NCBI GenBank assembly: GCA_024642295.1
Contig: JAHEBK010000025.1
Location: forward strand, 1 to 11,237
DNA length: 11,237 nt
From: Flavobacterium sp.
GTDB taxonomy: Bacteria > Bacteroidota > Bacteroidia > Flavobacteriales > Flavobacteriaceae
Direction of reading: 5' to 3'
Shown here: positions 2,902 to 11,237 of the stretch, one piece after another
Layout of the letters: every line of letters starts with the position of its first letter
How positions within the stretch are numbered: the stretch's first letter is position 1
Made by a program: the position numbers and the translations under genes
Notes under the pieces: generated by a model
Seen by the model: the letters and a program-made list of their open reading frames with translations, nothing else
Database searches by the model: none
What the model was told of the DNA's origin: nothing

Positions 2902-3411
2902 TCATATTTTAGCAAAAATATTAGTGTAATATTTTTTTCCAGTCACTGGATCCGCTTTAATTGCTATTCCAAAATGTGTATAATTACCAACAATATTCTC
3001 TTTGTGAGCTGGACTATTTAACCAAGCTGCAACAACTGATTCAGGAGTATTAAAATTGTAAGCTACATTCTCACCTACTGTTTTAGCACCTAAAACCTTA
3101 ATAATGTTTTGTGAACGTGCTACAAAATCATTATGATTAACTACTTTATTTGCAATCATATAATCATCGTGTTCTTCAGATTTAAATGAAATATGATTTA
3201 TTCTTTCTAATGTACTTAGACCTTGACTAATTCTATATTCATTAATTAAATTCATGGTAGCCAATTCCATGTCATTATAACTATACTCAACAACTTTCGC
3301 TGTAAGATTACTAGCTTCTAATGAAGCTTCTTCAGATTTATCAGAAGAACAAGAATTCATTGTAAAGATTACTACTGATAGTAATGCAAGACGAAGTAAG
3401 TTTGTTTTCAT
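2902..3411 (-). CDS. CAP/SCP-domain (YkwD-like) lipoprotein
   Basis: The 169-residue protein starts with a lipoprotein signal (MKTNLLRLALLSVVIFTMNSC) in which Cys21 is the lipidation site. The acidic stretch after it (SSDKSEE) loosely resembles the surface-export signals described for Bacteroidetes lipoproteins, so it may face the outside, but this is inference. Residues about 48-169 form a bacterial CAP domain: LINEYR at 55-60, His81 in SEEHDDYM, Glu114 in VGENVAY, His136 in SPAHKENI, and a terminal YYTNIFAKI strand. The paired His/Glu residues are the conserved cavity of the family. Bacterial CAP proteins are secreted or envelope proteins whose activity is mostly unknown. The stop is TGA. 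The gene is divergent from the glycan operon and shares its 381-bp control region. Confidence 0.88.
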   Translation of the reverse strand: MKTNLLRLALLSVVIFTMNSCSSDKSEEASLEASNLTAKVVEYSYNDMELATMNLINEYRISQGLSTLERINHISFKSEEHDDYMIANKVVNHNDFVARSQNIIKVLGAKTVGENVAYNFNTPESVVAAWLNSPAHKENIVGNYTHFGIAIKADPVTGKKYYTNIFAKI

Positions 3412-3490
3412 AATAATAGTAGTTTAAGTTTAAAGTAGATTGTGGGGCAAACTCTTTAATATGTTATTTTATTTTTTAATATTTCTTTGA

Positions 3491-3498
3491 CAAACATA
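3491..3498 (-). promoter_or_regulatory. Candidate -7 promoter box for the CAP-lipoprotein gene
   Basis: The minus strand reads TATGTTTG, matching TAnnTTTG. It lies 79 bases upstream of the ATG at 3411 and 8 bases downstream of the first ATCGAT pair. Another match (TACATTTG, 3680-3673) lies further upstream. Such 8-mers occur by chance in AT-rich DNA, so support is modest. Confidence 0.3.
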
Positions 3499-3505
3499 TA
3501 CATAA

Positions 3506-3534
3506 CATCGATTAAATACACAATAAAATCGATG
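3506..3534. promoter_or_regulatory. ATCGAT pair 1 (inverted), candidate operator
   Basis: CATCGATT (3506-3513) and AATCGATG (3527-3534) form a perfect 8-bp inverted repeat. The two ATCGAT cores start exactly 21 bp apart, two helical turns. This is the arrangement expected for a dimeric DNA-binding protein. The bound protein is unknown. Confidence 0.4.
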
Positions 3535-3691
3535 AAATGCATAAATTTTTAAATTTCAACTACATTTTTCTTACATAAATACATTTAAACAGATTATTTT
3601 TATTAAATAATAACTGAGAGTTAAAATTTGTTAGCAGAGATAATATGTTTTATTTGTAGTATTTTTTACATGCAAATGTAATTTTTTGTAT

Positions 3692-3721
3692 TTTATCGAT
3701 GTTTTTTATCACTTTATCGAT
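3692..3721. promoter_or_regulatory. ATCGAT pair 2 (direct), candidate operator
   Basis: TTTATCGAT occurs at 3692-3700 and again at 3713-3721, a 9-bp direct repeat with a 21-bp period identical to that of pair 1. A third TTTATC lies between them at 3705-3710. The second copy ends 20 bp before the -7 box at 3742, so it covers the -33 region of the operon promoter. That suits an activator or repressor site. Confidence 0.4.
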
Positions 3722-3741
3722 ATTATTAAAATGTTTTGTAA

Positions 3742-3749
3742 TATATTTG
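3742..3749 (+). promoter_or_regulatory. Candidate -7 promoter box of the envelope-glycan operon
   Basis: TATATTTG matches the TAnnTTTG consensus exactly and lies 43 bases before the ATG at 3793. No TTG is present at the expected -33 distance. An ATCGAT palindrome lies there instead, which suggests dependence on a regulator. Confidence 0.45.
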
Positions 3750-3792
3750 AATTACCCAAATGCCCCAAATCTTAATTTAAAAATAACCTACG

Positions 3793-4161
3793 ATGAATAC
3801 ATCTAAAAAAATTGTTTTAGCAGAAGACAACTCCATACTTTCATTATTGCTAAAGTTCAAATTAGAAAAAGAAGGTTACAAACTTTTAATAGCTGTAAAT
3901 GGCAAAGAAGCAATTGAGCTAATCGAAGAACATGAACCAGATATGATTCTTACAGATATTATGATGCCTTTTGTAAGCGGCTTAGAAGTGATTAGTCATG
4001 TTAGAAACAAACTTGATCTAAAAACTCCTATCGTTGTTTTTTCTTCCGCAGGACAGGAAGAAATGGTTTTAAATGCATTCAATCTAGGTGCTACAGATTT
4101 CATGAGCAAACCCTTTAGCCCAAATGAATTGATTATTAGAACCAAAAGATTATTAAGTTAA
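3793..4161 (+). CDS. Single-domain (CheY-like) response regulator
   Basis: The 122-residue protein is a receiver domain with no output domain. The acidic pair Glu11-Asp12, the phosphoacceptor Asp55 (ILTDIMMP), Ser84/Ser85 at the switch position and Lys106-Pro107 (MSKPF) are all present, so it should be phosphorylatable. No histidine kinase gene is in the window, so the partner is encoded elsewhere. It is the first gene of the operon, 19 bp before the HEAT-repeat gene. Lacking a DNA-binding domain, it probably acts by protein-protein contact, possibly with the HEAT protein or the glycosyltransferase. That last step is inference from position. The leader is A/T-rich without Shine-Dalgarno. Confidence 0.92.
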   Translation: MNTSKKIVLAEDNSILSLLLKFKLEKEGYKLLIAVNGKEAIELIEEHEPDMILTDIMMPFVSGLEVISHVRNKLDLKTPIVVFSSAGQEEMVLNAFNLGATDFMSKPFSPNELIIRTKRLLS

Positions 4162-4180
4162 CTTTTTTAGCAAACTAATC

Positions 4181-5278
4181 ATGATAAAATTGTATCACTA
4201 TTTCGTTGATTACTTTCAACATGCCCCAACGTTAATTCAATTATCTTGGATTATTAGTGCTGGTTTTGTTTTTACAATCATACTTTTAGTTGCATACCTA
4301 AAGTATTTAAGAAAGAAACTAAGGACAAAAGAAAGAATCGAAACTACTTATCGTAAAAAATATGAAGCTGACCTTATCGAATATTTATATTCAGGTAATG
4401 ACGATGGAACGACCAGCATTCAACAACTAAACGTCATAAAGTATTTAAAAAAATGTACTACAAATGGTTTAAAAAGAAAAATCATAATTCATACATTATT
4501 AAAATTACGAAACGAAATTTCAGGTGAAACTGCCGATGCAATTCAACAACTATATTACCAAACAGGATTAATGAATCAAGCGGTAACTAGATTGAAACAT
4601 AAAAAATGGGACGTAGTAGCTCGAGCAATTAAAGAACTAACGCAATTTCAAATCAAAGAAGTTCATGATGATATTATTCTACATGTAAATCATCCAAAAA
4701 AAGAAGTTCGAAACGAAATTCAAATGTATTTGGTTAAACTATTTTCATTTGATGGTCTTGAATTTCTAGATGTATTAGAAAATCAATTATCAGAGTGGAA
4801 TCAAATTCAGTTGCTAGAAATTTTGCAAAAAGCAGAAAACCAAAAAGTTCCCGAATTAAACGATTGGTTAAAATCAGGTAATACTTCGGTTATTTCTTTT
4901 GCTATTAAATTGGCTAAAATTTTTCACCAAAATGAAACAAAAGATGAAATTATTGCCTTGTTTGAACATCCTGAAAAAGAAATCAGAATTCAAGCAATCG
5001 AAATGGTATCGCACCTAGGCATCTTTGAAGCTACGGATATTTTGAAAAACAACATCAAAGAAAGATGTTTGGATGAACAAATAACATTTTTCAAAATGTT
5101 TGAAAAAATGTGTACCCCTAATGATGTCCTATTTATTATGGAATACTTAGATCACGAAAACTTTGACATTAGAGTTTCTGCCAATATAATAATTGAATTA
5201 ATCAGTCCAGAAACCATTAGAATTAACAGACCAATAGAGGATAATTCCGAAACTAGTAGTTTAATTAAAGCCAGTTAA
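4181..5278 (+). CDS. Membrane-anchored HEAT-repeat protein
   Basis: The 365-residue protein has one predicted membrane segment at about 21-41 (SWIISAGFVFTIILLVAYL). A basic stretch follows (KYLRKKLRTKERIE), so the bulk should be cytoplasmic. The rest is alpha-helical with HEAT-like repeats. The clearest are around 142-190 (WDVVARAIKEL, HPKKEVRNEIQMYLVKLF), 237-290 (HPEKEIRIQAIEMVSHLG) and 313-342 (HENFDIRVSANIIIEL). HEAT arrays are binding scaffolds with no catalysis of their own. The gene follows the response regulator by 19 bp and ends 2 bp before the glycosyltransferase start, which suggests it couples the phosphorylation signal to the membrane synthase. That coupling is inferred. No PilZ or other c-di-GMP motif was seen. 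An exact family name is not assigned. Confidence 0.82.
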   Translation: MIKLYHYFVDYFQHAPTLIQLSWIISAGFVFTIILLVAYLKYLRKKLRTKERIETTYRKKYEADLIEYLYSGNDDGTTSIQQLNVIKYLKKCTTNGLKRKIIIHTLLKLRNEISGETADAIQQLYYQTGLMNQAVTRLKHKKWDVVARAIKELTQFQIKEVHDDIILHVNHPKKEVRNEIQMYLVKLFSFDGLEFLDVLENQLSEWNQIQLLEILQKAENQKVPELNDWLKSGNTSVISFAIKLAKIFHQNETKDEIIALFEHPEKEIRIQAIEMVSHLGIFEATDILKNNIKERCLDEQITFFKMFEKMCTPNDVLFIMEYLDHENFDIRVSANIIIELISPETIRINRPIEDNSETSSLIKAS

Positions 5279-5280
5279 TT

Positions 5281-6711
5281 ATGTATCTAAATATACCCGA
5301 ATCTATAACGATTATTTTAGAATTCATATTTTATATTTTTGCCTTTTCCGCAATACTATCTTATATCGTATTAGCTGTAATTTCAGGATTTGAAACCGTA
5401 AATTACATGAAAAAAAATAGCTTTGTGAATTACAAAGAAATTTTATCTTCATCCATTTCACCTTCTATATCCATTATAGCACCTGCCTATAACGAAACTT
5501 TGAATATTGTAGAAAACGTACGCTCTTTACTATCCAATCACTATGTAAATTATGATGTAATTATCGTAAATGATGGAAGTAAAGATGATAGTTTAGAAAA
5601 ACTTATCAAGGCTTATGATTTAGTGAAAGTCGATTATTTAATCAATCAACAAATCCCAACTAAACCTTTACGTGGAGGTATTTTCAAATCAACTAATCCT
5701 GCTTTTGAAAAACTAATTGTAGTCGATAAAGAAAATGGTGGAAAAGCAGATGCTTTAAATACAGGACTTAATATTAGTAAAAATAAATATGTTGCATGTA
5801 TAGATGTTGATTGTTTACTACTTGAAGAGGCATTACAAAAAATGATTAAACCCTTTTTAGAATCAACAGATGAAAAAGTAATTGCCGCAGGTGGTGTGAT
5901 TCGTATTGCTAATTCTTGCGAAATCAAAGACGGGAAACTAATAGATGTTAACTTACCGAAAAACAAGATTGTAAGAGGCCAAATTTTAGAGTATCTAAGA
6001 GCTTTTTTACTAGGAAGAATGGCATGGAGTAAACTTAATGGTTTATTGGTAATTTCAGGTGCTTTTGGATTATTTGATAAAAAAACTGCTATTGAAGTAG
6101 GTGGATATGACACTAAAACGGTAGGTGAAGATATGGAAATCATCGTAAGGATGAGACGATATATGGAAGAGCAAAAAGTAAAATACAGAGTCGCTTACAT
6201 TCCAGATCCTCTTTGTTGGACTGAAGCTCCAGATAGCTACAAAATTTTCATTTCTCAAAGAAACAGATGGACTCGAGGAACAATTGAAACTTTAAAAAAG
6301 CATAGAAAAATTGGTTTTAACTCTAAATACAATTCTTTAGGAACAATCAGTTATCCTTATTGGTTAATCTTTGAGCGAATTGCCCCTATTATTGAAGTTG
6401 CTGGGCTGTTTTATTTCTTATTTTTAATCCTAAACCATAATGTAAAATGGGATTATGCACTTGCCTTTTTACTTTTAGCCTATTTATTCACGGTATTTTT
6501 CTCTATCGTTACTATTATAACCGAAGAACTTACTTACCACCAATACAAGAAAAAAGGTATTGGTTTACAACTAATTAAAACCGCTTTACTTGAACCATTT
6601 ATCAATCATCCATTCATTTTATATGCCGCAGTAAAAGGTAATTTTGATTATTACTTTAATAAAAAAATAAAATGGGGTGAAATGACTAGAAAAGGAATGA
6701 CAAATAACTAA
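5281..6711 (+). CDS. Processive-type family 2 glycosyltransferase (inner-membrane glycan synthase)
   Basis: The 476-residue protein has an N-terminal membrane segment (about 12-37), a cytoplasmic GT2 domain (about 62-335) and C-terminal membrane segments (about 358-385, 392-416 and possibly 432-452). Nucleotide-sugar binding motifs are SIIAPAYNE (64-72), NDGS with Asp98, KENGGKADALN (150-160) and the DVD metal site Asp175/Asp177. The catalytic base region is GED (Glu283-Asp284), and QRNRW at 326-330 is the hallmark of processive synthases such as cellulose, hyaluronan and poly-GlcNAc synthases. It should polymerise a sugar at the cytoplasmic face and pass the chain across the membrane. The sugar cannot be read from the sequence. 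GT2 plus YaiO-type barrel recalls the E. coli yaiP/yaiO neighbourhood. The start lies 2 bp after the HEAT gene stop, so translation is probably coupled. Confidence 0.9.
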   Translation: MYLNIPESITIILEFIFYIFAFSAILSYIVLAVISGFETVNYMKKNSFVNYKEILSSSISPSISIIAPAYNETLNIVENVRSLLSNHYVNYDVIIVNDGSKDDSLEKLIKAYDLVKVDYLINQQIPTKPLRGGIFKSTNPAFEKLIVVDKENGGKADALNTGLNISKNKYVACIDVDCLLLEEALQKMIKPFLESTDEKVIAAGGVIRIANSCEIKDGKLIDVNLPKNKIVRGQILEYLRAFLLGRMAWSKLNGLLVISGAFGLFDKKTAIEVGGYDTKTVGEDMEIIVRMRRYMEEQKVKYRVAYIPDPLCWTEAPDSYKIFISQRNRWTRGTIETLKKHRKIGFNSKYNSLGTISYPYWLIFERIAPIIEVAGLFYFLFLILNHNVKWDYALAFLLLAYLFTVFFSIVTIITEELTYHQYKKKGIGLQLIKTALLEPFINHPFILYAAVKGNFDYYFNKKIKWGEMTRKGMTNN

Positions 6712-6740
6712 ATTGCCGAAAAATTTATAATAGTAAAAGC

Positions 6741-9164
6741 ATGAAAATTAAAGACCAACTAAAAAATAGTTTCTCTTACCTATATCTTAGCCTTTCATTA
6801 ATTCTTACTTTTTGGCTAATTAGTTTTTTTGAAATCATTTCAAAATCAATAAACGGGATTCATCTTGATAATATCGTTGTTGCAATCCTATTCAAATTGA
6901 TGAATGACTTTTGGACAGGACTGATTATCTCATTATTATTTTATCCTCTATTTTTAGTTTTAGGATATGCAAAAAAGCCATGGGATAGTATTGCAATTAA
7001 AGTTCTTTTCTCATTACTAGTAATTGGTCAGTTTGCTTTAACAAAATATCATTTGACTACATTAGTCAATCTAGGGGCTGATTTCTTAGGCTATTCTATT
7101 GATGATATGTTCACAACTGTAACAGCTTCAGAATCATTATCCATCATTTATTTCATCCCTTTTATTATTTTTCCCTTACTTTATATAGGGATTCATAAAA
7201 CAATTTCAAGTAGAATAACAACTAAACCTGCTTGTATTATTTTAGGAAGTCTAACCCTAATCTGTATTGGATTAAAAGCAATGGTTTCTGATTTTTCAGA
7301 TACCAATTATCAAAATAAACTGGCCTTTTTCACCACTGATATCATTCGTTTTCAAACCGATAAGAACGCATTCAATGCCGACAATTTAACTTATAAAAAC
7401 GAATACCCATTAGTAAAGTCATTTGACGCAACGCCTGATGTGTTGGCACCTTTCTTCGAAATCAAAGAGGAGAAACCAAACATTGTAATGATTATAGTCG
7501 AAGGTTTAGGGAATGAATTCATTGGGAAAAATGAATACCGTGGTTTTACCCCTTATTTGGATTCTTTGATTCCAAAATCACTGTACTGGGAAAATTTCGT
7601 TAGTAATGCTGGACGTACCTTTGGTGCATTGCCTTCTATTTTAGGATCTTTGCCTTATGGCGAAAAAGGATTTCTTGAAATGAATCCGTTGCCATCACAT
7701 ATCTCTTTAGTTAGTATTTTAAAAGCTAATGATTACACCACTTCTTTTTATTGTGGTGATGAATCTAGTTTTGACCGTAAAATTAACTTCCTAGAATACA
7801 ACGGTATAGACAATGTTATTGATATCAATAAATTTGGTCCTGGTTACGAAAAAACCAAAGAAAACTCTGGTGGTTTTACTTGGGGATATCCTGATGGAGA
7901 AATTTTCAAAAAAACACTTTCAGAATTAGACGGAAAAAAAGCACCTAGATTAGATATTGTAATGACATTAACCAATCATGAACCTTTTGATTTTCCTGCC
8001 AAAAAAGAATATTTAAAAAAGGTGGATAGTATCATGAATAGCAATAAAACCTTGGCGGTATCAAAATCTGAGGTTGCCACTTATAAAGACATTTTTGCTT
8101 GTTTGCTATACACGGATCATTCTATCAAAAAATTCATGGAATCGTATTCAAAAAGACCTGAATACAAGAACACCATCTTTGTAATTACAGGAGACCACCG
8201 TTTGATTCCTATAGCTCAAAAAGACAAATTGTGTCGTTTTCATGTGCCATTGTACATGTACAGCCCGTTGTTGAAAAAACCACAAAGCTTTAAATCGGTG
8301 TCTTCTCATTGGGATATTGCTCCTAGTTTAATGTCGTTTTTAATGAATAATTACAAAATGAACAAAATGGAGAAAACCACTTGGATGAGTACTGGTTTAG
8401 ATACCGTAAAAAAATTCAGAAACATACACACGATTCCTATCATGCAAAATAAGGGAAGTATTAATGAATTGATTTACAAAGACTATTTATACTCAAACGG
8501 AGATTTATTTAAAATTGATGAGAATTTTTCTATATCAAAAATCAATGATCCTGAAATGATGAAAGTCGTTGAAGATACTTTAACAGAATCAAAAAAACTA
8601 AATGCTTATTTGACTCAAAAGAATAAAATTATTCCTAATGCCATCAACATCTATACAAAACCTGCTTTTCAATTTTCTAAAGAGGATTTAGCAACTATTA
8701 AAAAATTGACGAAAGGACTGACCTATGACGAAACTTTTTTCTTAGCGCGTGACTATGCTTTTAATAAAGAACGAGATAAAGCACGATTGCTTTGTAACTA
8801 TATTTTGAATGAATTCCCAAATTATGCCGATGTGCGAACACTGAAAGGCAGAACATTAGCTTGGGACAAAAACTATAAAAAAGCAGAAAGCGAGTTACTT
8901 GAAGTAGTCAAAAGAACACCTTATTATAATGATAGTTACCTTGCTTTAATGGATTTATACTGGTGGTCTAATCAAGACCCAAAAGGAATTTCAATTGCTA
9001 AAAAAGGGTTGAAAAACAAAGTAGACAATCCAGAATTAGGCGTAAAATTAGCGCAAGCGTATAAGAGAACCAATAATATTGAAATGGCAACTGTAACGAT
9101 TGACAGTGTGCTTAAAAAGCATCCCGGAAACAAAGAATTTGTAAAAATTAAAAAAGCTTTGTAA
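6741..9164 (+). CDS. LTA synthase/OpgB-like phosphoglycerol transferase (alkaline phosphatase/sulfatase fold) with C-terminal TPR tail
   Basis: The 807-residue protein has about five N-terminal membrane segments (12-33, 57-77, 86-105, 133-152, 164-183), then a periplasmic sulfatase-fold domain (about 246-535). Metal and catalytic residues correspond to those of lipoteichoic acid synthase: Glu254 (VEGLGNEF), nucleophile Thr293 (NAGRTFGALPS), His413 (TNHEPF), Asp485-His486 (ITGDHR) and His501 (FHVPLY). The family moves phosphoglycerol from phosphatidylglycerol, either to make LTA or, as in OpgB, to decorate periplasmic glucans. In a Gram-negative glycan operon, decoration of the product of the upstream synthase is the better guess. 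Residues about 660-800 form a TPR tail, unusual for LTA synthases, which aligns to the TPR domain of the next gene. The next start is 1 bp after this stop. The acceptor is unknown, and other phospho- or sulfo-group chemistry is possible. Confidence 0.85.
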   Translation: MKIKDQLKNSFSYLYLSLSLILTFWLISFFEIISKSINGIHLDNIVVAILFKLMNDFWTGLIISLLFYPLFLVLGYAKKPWDSIAIKVLFSLLVIGQFALTKYHLTTLVNLGADFLGYSIDDMFTTVTASESLSIIYFIPFIIFPLLYIGIHKTISSRITTKPACIILGSLTLICIGLKAMVSDFSDTNYQNKLAFFTTDIIRFQTDKNAFNADNLTYKNEYPLVKSFDATPDVLAPFFEIKEEKPNIVMIIVEGLGNEFIGKNEYRGFTPYLDSLIPKSLYWENFVSNAGRTFGALPSILGSLPYGEKGFLEMNPLPSHISLVSILKANDYTTSFYCGDESSFDRKINFLEYNGIDNVIDINKFGPGYEKTKENSGGFTWGYPDGEIFKKTLSELDGKKAPRLDIVMTLTNHEPFDFPAKKEYLKKVDSIMNSNKTLAVSKSEVATYKDIFACLLYTDHSIKKFMESYSKRPEYKNTIFVITGDHRLIPIAQKDKLCRFHVPLYMYSPLLKKPQSFKSVSSHWDIAPSLMSFLMNNYKMNKMEKTTWMSTGLDTVKKFRNIHTIPIMQNKGSINELIYKDYLYSNGDLFKIDENFSISKINDPEMMKVVEDTLTESKKLNAYLTQKNKIIPNAINIYTKPAFQFSKEDLATIKKLTKGLTYDETFFLARDYAFNKERDKARLLCNYILNEFPNYADVRTLKGRTLAWDKNYKKAESELLEVVKRTPYYNDSYLALMDLYWWSNQDPKGISIAKKGLKNKVDNPELGVKLAQAYKRTNNIEMATVTIDSVLKKHPGNKEFVKIKKAL

Positions 9165-9165
9165 A

Positions 9166-10431
9166 ATGATTTTAAAATTAATCCCAAAAATAGCAATCCT
9201 TATTGGTTTTACCGCTGGAATTCAATTGCATGCGCAACAACCCGTATATAATGGAAATCCAGACACTTCCTTTGAAACTGCTCGTAAACTAGCTTTTAAC
9301 GACCAGCGCAAACAAGCTCAGGATACATTAGTAAACATTTTGACTAAATACCCAAACTATAGTGATATCCGAACTTTTTTGGCAACTACTTATTCATGGG
9401 ATGGTGATTATAAAAAAGCGCGTAAAGAATTTACCTATGTTATTCAAAATGATGCAAAAAACAAAGAAAACTGGATTGCTGCCATCAAAAACGAGTCATG
9501 GAGTAATTCCTATTATGATGCCATAACCATGGCTAACAATGCTTTAAAAGTTTTTCCAGAGGATTCTGAAATCTTGTTATTGAAAGCAAGTTCACTTGAA
9601 AACACCAAAAAACCAATAGAAGCATCTAAAATTGTTGAAGCAATCCTCTCCAAAAAACCTGATGACACCAAAGCATTGGAATACAAAACAAGTCTAGACC
9701 AAAGCTTACGTAAAAATTCAATAGGAATACGTTCTGCAGTTGATATTTATTCAGAAGTCTTTGATCCAATGCAATTACATACTCTTAATTATACCCGACT
9801 GACCCCATACGGAAGCATCATTACAAAGTTGAATTTCAACAGACGATTTAACGAAAACGGAACCCAATTTGAAGTGGATTTATACCCAAAAATTGCAAAA
9901 GGGCTTTATGCCTACCTGAATTTTGGAGTAGCAGACTCTTTCTTGTTTCCAGACATTCGTTATGGAGCCGAATTACACAAATCTTTACCCTATAGTTTAG
10001 AGGTTTCCGCAGGTTTTAGAGCTTTGCAATATGACAGTACTACATTGATTTATACAGGATCATTAGGTTGGTACACAGGAAACAGTTATTGGTCTTTGCG
10101 GCCGTATTTAACACCTGGTGATGGTGGCTTGAGTACTTCGGGCTTACTCAATTACCGTCGTTATCGTTCTAATGCCGATAATTATTGGTCTACTTCTTTC
10201 AGTATGGGATTCTCTCCTGAAATTTACCAATTCAAAGTAGAAAATAACGAAGACACAATCATTAACTTGCAATCTCAACGATTCAATTTGAGTTATTTTT
10301 TCACCACTCACCATAACAAAAACGCCTGGGGAGCACAGTTTGACCTTACTCATCAAGAAATTAGTTACGATCCTGGAAGCTATTTTTGGATTTATTCCTT
10401 TACGCTTTCTTGGGATATGAGGTTTAAGTAA
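9166..10431 (+). CDS. YaiO-family outer-membrane beta-barrel protein with periplasmic TPR domain
   Basis: The 421-residue protein begins with a Sec signal peptide (about 1-23, cleavage near LHA-QQ), followed by TPR-like helices (about 33-180). The C-terminal part (about 186-421) is rich in alternating aromatic strands (LNYTRLTPYGS, SYWSLRPYL, SFTLSWDMRF) and ends in RFK, consistent with an outer-membrane barrel of the YaiO type. The TPR-plus-barrel plan recalls PgaA and BcsC, the export porins for poly-GlcNAc and cellulose, although this barrel is shorter. It probably exports or anchors the glycan made by the synthase two genes upstream. The ATG lies 1 bp after the preceding stop, so it is translationally coupled, and the signal peptide supports that start. 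It is the last gene of the operon. No clear terminator was found in the 116 bp that follow. Confidence 0.85.
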   Translation: MILKLIPKIAILIGFTAGIQLHAQQPVYNGNPDTSFETARKLAFNDQRKQAQDTLVNILTKYPNYSDIRTFLATTYSWDGDYKKARKEFTYVIQNDAKNKENWIAAIKNESWSNSYYDAITMANNALKVFPEDSEILLLKASSLENTKKPIEASKIVEAILSKKPDDTKALEYKTSLDQSLRKNSIGIRSAVDIYSEVFDPMQLHTLNYTRLTPYGSIITKLNFNRRFNENGTQFEVDLYPKIAKGLYAYLNFGVADSFLFPDIRYGAELHKSLPYSLEVSAGFRALQYDSTTLIYTGSLGWYTGNSYWSLRPYLTPGDGGLSTSGLLNYRRYRSNADNYWSTSFSMGFSPEIYQFKVENNEDTIINLQSQRFNLSYFFTTHHNKNAWGAQFDLTHQEISYDPGSYFWIYSFTLSWDMRFK

Positions 10432-10547: not shown

Positions 10548-11237
10548 ATGAGCACTTTTGAGCAATTTAATCTCCCAAAATCAGTACAAAAAGCCATTGA
10601 TGATTTGGGATTTGAAACCCCTACTCCCATTCAAGAAAAGTCATTTTCAGTAATCATGTCCGGACGTGATATGATGGGAATTGCACAAACAGGAACAGGT
10701 AAAACTTTTGCCTATTTATTGCCGTTATTAAAACTGTATAAATTCACTCCTGGACATACTCCAAAAATTGTAATCCTTGTCCCTACCCGCGAATTAGTAG
10801 TACAAGTGGTTGATGAAGTTGAAAAATTAACCCAATATATGTCGGTTAGAACTATCGGTATTTTTGGTGGGGTGAATATCAACACTCAAAAAACTACCGT
10901 ATATCAAGGATGTGACATCTTAGTGGGAACTCCTGGAAGAATAATGGATTTAACATTAGATAATGTGATCCGTTTTGAAGAAATGCAAAAATTAGTCATT
11001 GATGAGTTTGACGAAATGCTGAATTTAGGTTTCCGCACACAACTCACCGCCATCTTAGCTATGATGCCTAAAAAACGTCAAAACATTTTGTTCTCGGCAA
11101 CTATGACCGATGAAGTCGATGCCGTTTTGAACGATTACTTTGATTATCCTGAAGAGGTAACTTTATCTCCTTCGGGAACACCACTAGAGAATATTAAACA
11201 GATTACCTATAATGTTCCCAACTTCAACACCAAAATC
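10548..11237 (+). CDS. DEAD-box ATP-dependent RNA helicase, 3'-truncated by window edge
   Basis: An open frame from ATG 10548 runs 230 codons to the end of the window without a stop. The first RecA-like domain is complete. It has the Q motif (Phe4, TPIQ at 26-29), Walker A AQTGTGKT at 46-53, motif Ia PTREL at 79-83, TPGR at 128-131, motif II at 152-155 and SAT at 183-185. The helicase C domain lies beyond the window. Motif II reads DEFD instead of DEAD. The two acidic catalytic residues are kept, so ATPase activity is expected. These enzymes unwind short RNA duplexes in ribosome assembly, mRNA decay or cold adaptation. Which subfamily it belongs to cannot be decided without the C-terminus. 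It has its own promoter and is probably not part of the preceding operon. Confidence 0.93.
   Translation, partial: MSTFEQFNLPKSVQKAIDDLGFETPTPIQEKSFSVIMSGRDMMGIAQTGTGKTFAYLLPLLKLYKFTPGHTPKIVILVPTRELVVQVVDEVEKLTQYMSVRTIGIFGGVNINTQKTTVYQGCDILVGTPGRIMDLTLDNVIRFEEMQKLVIDEFDEMLNLGFRTQLTAILAMMPKKRQNILFSATMTDEVDAVLNDYFDYPEEVTLSPSGTPLENIKQITYNVPNFNTKI

Follow-up and report, generated by a model that had tools for sequence, protein, structure and literature searches.

A conserved five-gene cluster of Flavobacterium predicted to encode a c-di-GMP-independent glycan secretion machine with head-group transfer

On balance, we favor the view that five adjacent genes of Flavobacterium sp. encode a synthase-type glycan secretion machine that operates independently of c-di-GMP and transfers a head group, more likely phosphoethanolamine than phosphoglycerol, to its product. 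The genes lie in an 11,237-nucleotide stretch of DNA (hereafter, the window) from a MAG that is 69% complete. That their products function together as a trans-envelope glycan machine is well supported at the sequence level because the gene order is conserved, the GT2 synthase and the phosphotransferase are fused in some relatives, and modules are shared. The original prediction for this locus was a glycan secretion system using phosphoglycerol; the co-functioning machine holds on these three grounds, but the phosphoglycerol part is not supported, as no convincing pgsA was found.

Gene layout and conservation

All five genes are encoded on the same strand with intergenic gaps of 19, 2, 29 and 1 bp, which confirms the open reading frames and spacing predicted originally. 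The first encodes a stand-alone response-regulator receiver without an output domain (3793..4161, +; 122 aa; Pfam Response_reg, 91.8 bits), followed by a membrane-anchored HEAT-repeat protein (4181..5278, +; 365 aa; Pfam HEAT_2, 34.1 bits), a processive-type GT2 synthase (5281..6711, +; 476 aa; Pfam Glycos_transf_2, 73.4 bits), a predicted LtaS/OpgB-fold lipid-head-group phosphotransferase with a C-terminal TPR (6741..9164, +; 807 aa; Pfam Sulfatase superfamily, 97.4 bits, and TPR_19) and a YaiO-family outer-membrane protein joining a TPR to a barrel (9166..10431, +; 421 aa; Pfam YaiO, 206.5 bits, and TPR_19). The intergenic stretch 5' of the operon (3412..3792, no strand assigned), divergent from a CAP-domain gene, is the probable promoter region; scans for sigma-70 promoters and terminators returned no more sites than in shuffled sequences, and they identified no promoter element upstream of the operon. 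Downstream, after a gap of 116 bp, lies a DEAD-box helicase gene (10548..11237, +; Pfam DEAD), which we do not count as part of the machine. A DEAD homolog follows the cluster in all 12 genus loci described below and is the immediately next gene in 10, among which L043 is counted even though a short ORF on the other strand was called in between; in L049 and L050 it sits beyond additional genes.

A search of 60 genomes from the same genus gave an ortholog in 12, and because 10 of these 12 keep all five genes in the same order, the arrangement is not due to chance. The expectation that the five families would be neighbors in related genomes was thus checked directly and stands. In the two exceptions, the locus is truncated by the contig end (L042), or the GT2 and the phosphotransferase are fused and the receiver is not in the stretch read (L049). 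Among the 80 closest named loci, the GT2 is adjacent or fused to the phosphotransferase in 79, and YaiO lies at most three genes away in all 80; these loci are the nearest among 505 relatives retrieved with a single peptide pattern, and hence all belong to Flavobacteriaceae or unclassified Bacteroidetes. Carriers with species names include F. granuli, F. flevense, F. frigoris and F. psychrolimnae. In other Bacteroidota the GT2 and the phosphotransferase form a single polypeptide, and the fused state requires three changes on the GT2 tree. A literature search over titles and abstract openings of open-licence papers, with most subscription journals outside its range, returned no description of this arrangement.

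To cover the phylum, 80 regions were hand-picked from the match list. They represent 75 genomes out of 99 with a match, and five genomes contributed two regions each; those left out include the genomes of group g82 and four fused-gene genomes already read in the genus set, and G440, added later, is not included in the counts. One locus, L158, was dropped since its GT2 was not called by the ORF caller, and 79 loci remain. The search for partners extended over six called genes. A partner past a contig end was scored absent, as in L165, whose phosphotransferase gene possibly lies on the short contig L249. The ORF calling was mechanical (longest non-overlapping frames) and can miss genes: no receiver was called in L053, and no GT2 was called beside the phosphotransferase in L212. 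With this scoring, a HEAT-type protein is encoded immediately 5' of the GT2 in 78 of the 79 loci. The phosphotransferase is optional for the GT2, as YaiO occurs without it in 32 loci and neither is present in 20. HEAT-GT2 is therefore a phylum-wide core, usually with the receiver, to which the phosphotransferase and YaiO form an attached module.

The gene partnership points to a glycan as the acceptor of the phosphotransferase. The enzyme might instead act on lipid or LPS, or on a separate OPG-kind periplasmic glucan, with the operon merely grouping envelope functions. Of the 79 GT2 loci, 52 showed no such enzyme nearby, and in L247, L248 and L250 the enzyme is present with no GT2 in the stretch read (L249 is too short to judge); L250 lacks YaiO as well in the 18 kb read. 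Its OpgB and EptA relatives, moreover, act on glucans and lipid A. We nevertheless judge a separate acceptor to be improbable, for the repeated fusion to the GT2, the tight pairing with YaiO and the common TPR all argue for one substrate stream.

Synthase, cytoplasmic partners and outer-membrane barrel

The GT2 carries membrane segments and the motifs DGS, DVD, GED and QRNRW. Residues D98, D175, E283, D284, Q326, R327, R329 and W330 are invariant among 36 aligned sequences, and D177 is kept in 35; the membrane segments together with the invariant D, D, ED and QxxRW residues are those of an inner-membrane polysaccharide synthase. The protein is PgaC/IcaA-like, with a score of 130.7 bits against the PgaC_IcaA model that is far under the equivalog cut-off of 422.3. 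We do not claim a PNAG system (PgaABCD/IcaADBC), given this PgaC score and a PgaA score of 20.3 against a cut-off of 366.65 bits.

The receiver possesses all of the residues E11/D12, D55, S84 and K106. The HEAT protein has a single N-terminal membrane segment by hydropathy (aa 19-37, ~nt 4235-4291) followed by a basic stretch, and its repeats are presumably cytoplasmic. Neither PilZ nor GGDEF domains were detected in any of the 13 cluster-bearing genomes (the window's own being incomplete, as given above), in searches whose controls gave their expected signal; therefore, c-di-GMP control looks absent genome-wide in these bacteria, and the c-di-GMP-binding domain or co-polymerase of synthase-dependent systems was not found. 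This extends to whole genomes what had originally been claimed for the cluster. Independence from c-di-GMP is not universal, since L149, a locus from beyond the window's class, encodes a REC-GGDEF-REC protein in place of the receiver.

The YaiO protein consists of an N-terminal hydrophobic leader, a TPR (~nt 9259-9708) and a barrel (~nt 9715-10425), and its AlphaFold model (mean pLDDT 90.2) has 14 strands, so that TPR and outer-membrane barrel are combined in one predicted protein. It exceeds the family cut-offs clearly (TIGR04390, 175.7 versus 32; PF19413, 206.5 versus 23.9 bits). Two points about the barrel count against the proposed machine. It differs from the barrels of PgaA and BcsC, which have 16 strands. 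Its best matches among solved structures include Omp33, OmpG, FadL and CymA, which are small-molecule or oligosaccharide channels; the 50 structure matches listed contain no polysaccharide secretin of the PgaA, BcsC or AlgE kind, which we do not count as evidence. When its profile was compared with the Protein Data Bank, TPR-type proteins were among the best 60 of 279 matches. No study on the function of YaiO was found among the titles and abstract openings of the papers listed.

The LtaS-fold enzyme and its lipid donor

The phosphotransferase comprises membrane helices (aa 2-181), a catalytic domain (~nt 7470-8351) and a C-terminal TPR (~nt 8724-9158) that is homologous to the TPR of the YaiO protein. 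In fold and sequence it is nearest to LtaS and the OpgB-like 3lxq; Foldseek gave E values of 4.5e-17 to 6.0e-15 for LtaS entries, with EptA 5fgn behind at 9.1e-10. The metal and nucleophile residues E254, T293, D485 and H486 are present, and the LtaS/OpgB-type fold with its catalytic residues is thus borne out as originally proposed. The scores for the equivalog models were below the cut-offs for both LtaS (51.1 versus 970 bits) and OpgB (33.5 versus 572 bits), and at the positions of the LtaS contact residues W354 and R356, the window enzyme has D345 and a variable position 347. An LtaS-fold domain behind membrane helices, with its catalytic residues kept, makes the protein a candidate periplasmic modifier.

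The enzyme could alternatively be idle on lipids and serve as a scaffold or sensor in the manner of PbgA/YejM, which we consider distinctly improbable in view of the nucleophile and metal residues, kept as E/D in 39, T/S in 38, D in 36 and H in 38 of 39 aligned sequences. In one homolog, L097, the nucleophile motif that the others conserve is missing. A sulfatase role for the enzyme, with a sulfated glycan as substrate, has very little probability, even with its Pfam Sulfatase superfamily match, the 22 PF00884 matches in the genome and a sequence, S288-N-A-G-R292, that formally fits C/S-x-P/A-x-R. An FGly sulfatase was rejected on motif and fold; the P/A position is unconserved in relatives, and T293 is the conserved residue.

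The identity of the head group was approached through the lipids of the host. No convincing pgsA, the gene for phosphatidylglycerol, was detected in the 13 operon-bearing genomes (best score 33.4 bits versus a cut-off of 109.1), nor in 24 genomes of the window's class (maximum 44.9 bits) from a hand-listed set of 36 others that encode the phosphotransferase. Phosphatidylethanolamine genes are present, and the three CDP-alcohol transferases scanned are two PssA-like proteins and one inositol-phosphate-synthase-like protein. Three papers on Flavobacterium polar lipids (PMC9076710 and PMC8570120 among them) name phosphatidylethanolamine, and the word phosphatidylglycerol is absent from their main texts. 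Because the host genus shows no convincing pgsA for phosphatidylglycerol, phosphoethanolamine or another head group seems at least as likely a tag as phosphoglycerol. The original assignment of phosphoglycerol, although fitting the fold and family, is for the same reason not supported.

An OpgB-like transfer of phosphoglycerol from phosphatidylglycerol onto the glycan would require that this lipid be made by another route or by a divergent enzyme missed by the pgsA model, and we regard it as unlikely on the evidence above, albeit worth serious consideration. The nearest structures and family models are those of phosphatidylglycerol users, which argues against an ethanolamine donor; pgsA-like genes scoring 100.6-130.4 bits occur in 12 of the 36 genomes, all relatives outside the window's class; and two of the Flavobacterium lipid profiles report, respectively, three unidentified phospholipids and an unidentified aminophospholipid (PMC9076710, PMC8570120). 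When the enzymes of pgsA-bearing (9) and pgsA-less (30) relatives were compared over residues 240-560, no separating position reached the threshold, and the comparison thus points to no particular specificity switch.

Relation to known systems and a proposed mechanism

Synthase-dependent exopolysaccharide systems are described in PMC7112194 in four parts and for five polymers, the typical system being controlled by c-di-GMP. Like Pga, Bcs, Alg and Pel, the window combines an inner-membrane GT2 synthase, a periplasmic modifier (a candidate here) and a TPR-joined outer-membrane barrel in one operon. Unlike them, it has a receiver and a HEAT protein in place of a c-di-GMP-binding part, an LtaS-fold phosphotransferase as modifier rather than a deacetylase, hydrolase or acetylase, and a second TPR, on the modifier, alongside its 14-strand YaiO barrel. 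The E. coli yaiS-yaiP-(yaiX)-yaiO cluster is similar in its YaiO-family barrel (TIGR04390, 182.4 bits versus 175.7 for the window) and in a nearby PgaC-like GT2 (PgaC_IcaA, 100.5 bits for YaiP versus 130.7). The common YaiO family rests on TIGR04390, since a direct BLASTP alignment of E. coli YaiO with the window protein falls short of significance (15.8 bits) and profile comparison gives a probability of only 54%. E. coli YaiO is entirely barrel, whereas the window protein has a TPR; the possible modifiers of E. coli, an annotated YaiS deacetylase and YaiX acyltransferase (IS2-interrupted in K-12), are unlike that of the window, and neither a receiver nor a HEAT gene is found in the E. coli stretch shown.

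OpgH/OpgB (MdoB) systems and the Pseudomonas NdvB-type systems for glycerol-phosphorylated glucans likewise have a GT2 glucan synthase. In the former it is accompanied by MdoB, a membrane-bound phosphoglycerol transferase from the superfamily of the window enzyme, which draws on phosphatidylglycerol (PMC10237404). Their products are periplasmic or cyclic glucans, unlike the secreted glycan proposed here. In comparison with LtaS, the window enzyme shares the fold, the membrane helices with an extracytoplasmic catalytic domain, the threonine nucleophile and the metal residues, but it belongs to a Gram-negative bacterium, carries a C-terminal TPR and has a fused or neighboring GT2. The OpgH/OpgB and NdvB-type systems are not known to work with a YaiO barrel, a HEAT protein or a receiver. 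In E. coli, BcsG, an alkaline-phosphatase-fold membrane enzyme of another branch than the window enzyme, transfers lipid-derived phosphoethanolamine onto a GT2 polymer in the periplasm, in a Bcs system under c-di-GMP/PilZ control.

The genes, their order and conservation, the fusions, the catalytic residues and the fold predictions are observations, as are the negative searches for c-di-GMP domains and pgsA; which polymer is made, how and from which donor it is modified, how the machine is controlled and how its product leaves the cell are inferred as follows. A phosphorelay would charge the stand-alone receiver, possibly from a hybrid histidine kinase such as some relatives encode next door, and the receiver would then act on the membrane-anchored HEAT protein. 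The conserved HEAT-GT2 core suggests that the HEAT protein sits on or beside the GT2 and gates it, and the GT2, judging from its family, would polymerize the glycan and thread the chain through the inner membrane. The LtaS-fold enzyme, GT2-fused in several lineages, would move a phospho-head-group from a periplasm-facing phospholipid onto the emerging chain, the donor here being phosphatidylethanolamine more probably than phosphatidylglycerol and the tag thus phosphoethanolamine. The homologous periplasmic TPRs of the phosphotransferase and YaiO may pass the chain to the 14-strand barrel for export. As a tentative and rather doubtful generalization, the machine might represent a Bacteroidota-wide c-di-GMP-free branch in which a PgaC-like synthase is gated by the receiver together with the HEAT protein, the coupled LtaS-fold enzyme, often part of one polypeptide with the synthase and its donor changed where phosphatidylglycerol is absent, adds phosphoethanolamine or another head group, and the paired TPRs carry a zwitterionic polymer to the YaiO pore.

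With no c-di-GMP domains found in the cluster-bearing Bacteroidota genomes tested, the conserved HEAT-GT2 core and the receiver make the switching of such a machine directly testable. The natural synthase-phosphotransferase fusion provides a single-protein handle on glycan decoration during synthesis, and the arrangement suggests what barrels of the YaiO family may do. Should the tag prove to be phosphoethanolamine, the donor-changed LtaS-fold enzyme would link teichoic-acid chemistry to that of the phosphoethanolamine-cellulose kind.

Operon layout and conservation of gene order

Five ORFs on the forward strand (3793-10431) begin with a stand-alone receiver. It is followed by a HEAT-repeat protein whose single membrane segment is N-terminal, then a GT2 synthase, then a phosphotransferase of the alkaline-phosphatase superfamily with TPR at its C-terminus, and finally a TPR-YaiO barrel protein. 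ORF positions and domain matches confirm the original prediction of a five-gene set on one strand with gaps of 19, 2, 29 and 1 bp. A DEAD-box helicase gene follows, 116 bp past the operon. The window is contig C58 of its own genome (2.2 Mb, 69% complete), and the nearest orthologs of the fourth gene are from Flavobacterium. A small CAP-domain (YkwD-like) protein is encoded divergently from the operon (2902-3411, reverse strand); this upstream side (CAP, SDR, transaldolase) was not seen at the other loci of the genus, with which the window shares the downstream helicase.

The proposed neighbourhood of the five families, in order across relatives, was borne out. A fourth-gene ortholog was found in 12 of 60 same-genus genomes (58-79% identity), and 10 of these loci hold all five genes in the same order; locus L042 is cut by a contig end, and in L049 a single 1260-codon ORF spans the third and fourth genes, and the stretch read contains no receiver. 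Among 80 named loci, the closest of 505 relatives found across 84,980 species genomes, GT2 sits immediately ahead of the fourth gene on its strand in 74 and is fused to it in 5, the exception being L212. HEAT adjoins in all 73 loci with a long enough contig, and the receiver in 68 of them (L196, L209, L210, L214 and L222 lack it there, and three of them have one farther downstream); YaiO adjoins in 77 of the 80 and is at most three genes off in the remaining 3.

Core, module and fusions

Across 79 GT2 neighbourhoods in Bacteroidota, HEAT lies directly upstream of GT2 in 78. Within six genes, 67 of the neighbourhoods have a receiver, 58 have YaiO and 27 have the phosphotransferase, 26 of these 27 with YaiO as well; 32 have YaiO without the phosphotransferase, and 20 have neither. 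HEAT was called here with our own profile and three sequence clusters; Pfam HEAT_2 scored above cut-off in L139 and L151 (representatives of two clusters), the window, L049, L102 and L099, and below it in L051 and L121. Four phosphotransferases located away from the GT2 match were examined separately: YaiO is immediately downstream in L247 and L248 despite this distance, L250 has no YaiO directly behind, and L249, a 6.3-kb contig with both genes, ends before nearness to GT2 is readable. By these counts and loci, receiver-HEAT-GT2 forms the core; the phosphotransferase-YaiO pair acts like a module gained or lost by it on several occasions. Mapped on a tree of 97 GT2s (quick method without bootstrap, L191 left out), phosphotransferase presence requires 15 changes, 12 of them forced by well-supported branches, and the fused state 3.

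An approximately 1145-aa protein of Myroides, Chryseobacterium and Sphingobacterium joins GT2 and phosphotransferase in one chain. A search with it returned 1157 proteins at E <= 1e-30, and all 120 matches listed carry GT2 and Sulfatase domains; at E <= 1e-40, a match to it was present in 99 of 395 genomes sampled evenly across the phylum. A second fused form, 1260-1270 aa long and with the TPR retained, occurs within the genus (L049, L087, L127), and a third (L191, 1296 aa) is by score close to the window type. Such physical joining of adjacent enzymes is strong evidence for one common substrate stream.

Several variants accompany these loci. In a sister variant (L115:11983-14196; also L049 and L087), a DUF4838 protein comes after YaiO, and one of the two scanned has a GH20b-like domain. 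This variant occupies the chromosomal site of the phosphotransferase variant, flanked by a 254-aa gene on one side and the DEAD helicase on the other; in several loci a receiver stands behind the DUF4838 protein, and L050, L128 and L129 have like-sized ORFs at that position. A second HEAT-GT2-YaiO set immediately follows the first in some Flavobacterium loci (L112, L180, L193, L199). A protein family (about 391 aa, hydrophobic at the N-terminus) is encoded close to GT2, YaiO or the phosphotransferase at 12 loci (L121, L089, L090, L091, L094, L096, L119, L123 and four more); its representative (L121:9613-10788) matched no Pfam family, and the phosphotransferases of the eight named loci are without TPR. 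The nucleophile region is lost in the homolog L097:6804-9137 and has serine in L101:10334-12754 and L110:6736-9114, all in loci with enlarged HEAT proteins (693-859 aa); L102:10063-12855 encodes a 931-aa HEAT protein with an extra weak HEAT match that scores below cut-off and lies a long way downstream of the usual stretch. Near the cluster, L044:13719-16520 and L049:15145-17943 encode large proteins that combine Big_9 with a sorting tail for type IX secretion, the tail scoring below cut-off in L044.

Head-group donor

LtaS takes phosphoglycerol from phosphatidylglycerol. The same lipid is the source for MdoB (OpgB), according to an excerpt of PMC10237404. The original prediction of phosphoglycerol as the decoration was not upheld: the pgsA model scored at most 33.4 bits (cut-off 109.1) in 13 cluster-bearing genomes, the window's own, 69% complete, included, and phosphatidylethanolamine genes are present. 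Scores in 36 further phosphotransferase-bearing genomes fall into two groups, at most 44.9 bits in 24, all of the window's class, and 100.6-130.4 bits in 12, all outside it, 5 of which exceed the cut-off. No sequence position parted the enzymes of pgsA-bearing and pgsA-less groups at the threshold used. CDP-alcohol transferases number one to three per cluster-bearing genome, mostly two; two of three scanned are PssA-like (101.6 and 96.3 bits, slightly below the cut-off of 107) and one resembles inositol-phosphate synthase (67 bits, well below cut-off). Phosphatidylserine decarboxylase occurs in 13 of 13.

Excerpts of three species descriptions (PMC6411956, PMC9076710, PMC8570120) count phosphatidylethanolamine among the major lipids, alongside ornithine or amino lipids, and the word "phosphatidylglycerol" is absent from their main texts; the profile excerpted from PMC9076710 has three unidentified phospholipids, leaving room for it. 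F. psychrolimnae, which carries the cluster (L193), has a similar major lipid profile in the part of PMC6411956 consulted. The low pgsA scores, the PssA-like and decarboxylase genes and the lipid profiles together make a phosphoethanolamine tag more likely than phosphoglycerol, contrary to family resemblance.

The window's genome (G000) has 22 PF00884 matches including the window's, most high-scoring and grouped on a few contigs (C327, C274, C194, C272, C423), which suggests a degrader of sulfated polysaccharides.

Control of the synthase and relation to known secretion systems

The predicted lack of c-di-GMP control was supported: PilZ and GGDEF domains were found in none of 13 cluster-bearing genomes (the window's own 69% complete), and the controls of the search gave hits. 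In 16 of the 80 named loci, a protein of >350 aa that itself matches a receiver is encoded immediately ahead of the stand-alone one. It is presumed to be a hybrid kinase on the model of L051, L088 and L116, from other locus sets, where Pfam finds kinase and receiver domains. Outside the window's class, a REC-GGDEF-REC protein (L149:6407-8032) fills the receiver slot upstream of HEAT-GT2; L151, L154 and L156 have proteins similar in length to this one, whose domains were read in L149. Together, the missing PilZ and GGDEF domains, the presumed kinases and the L149 protein suggest that the receiver slot delivers the on/off signal of the synthase, by way of c-di-GMP in one branch and without it in the window's.

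The observation underlying the original prediction thus stands, and its interpretation is supported in part. As read from its genes, the five-gene machine would work in the same pattern as synthase-dependent secretion systems, but the c-di-GMP feature of their description is missing. Because this feature failed, we place the machine outside these systems proper, as a new variant of synthase-dependent secretion rather than a member as described.
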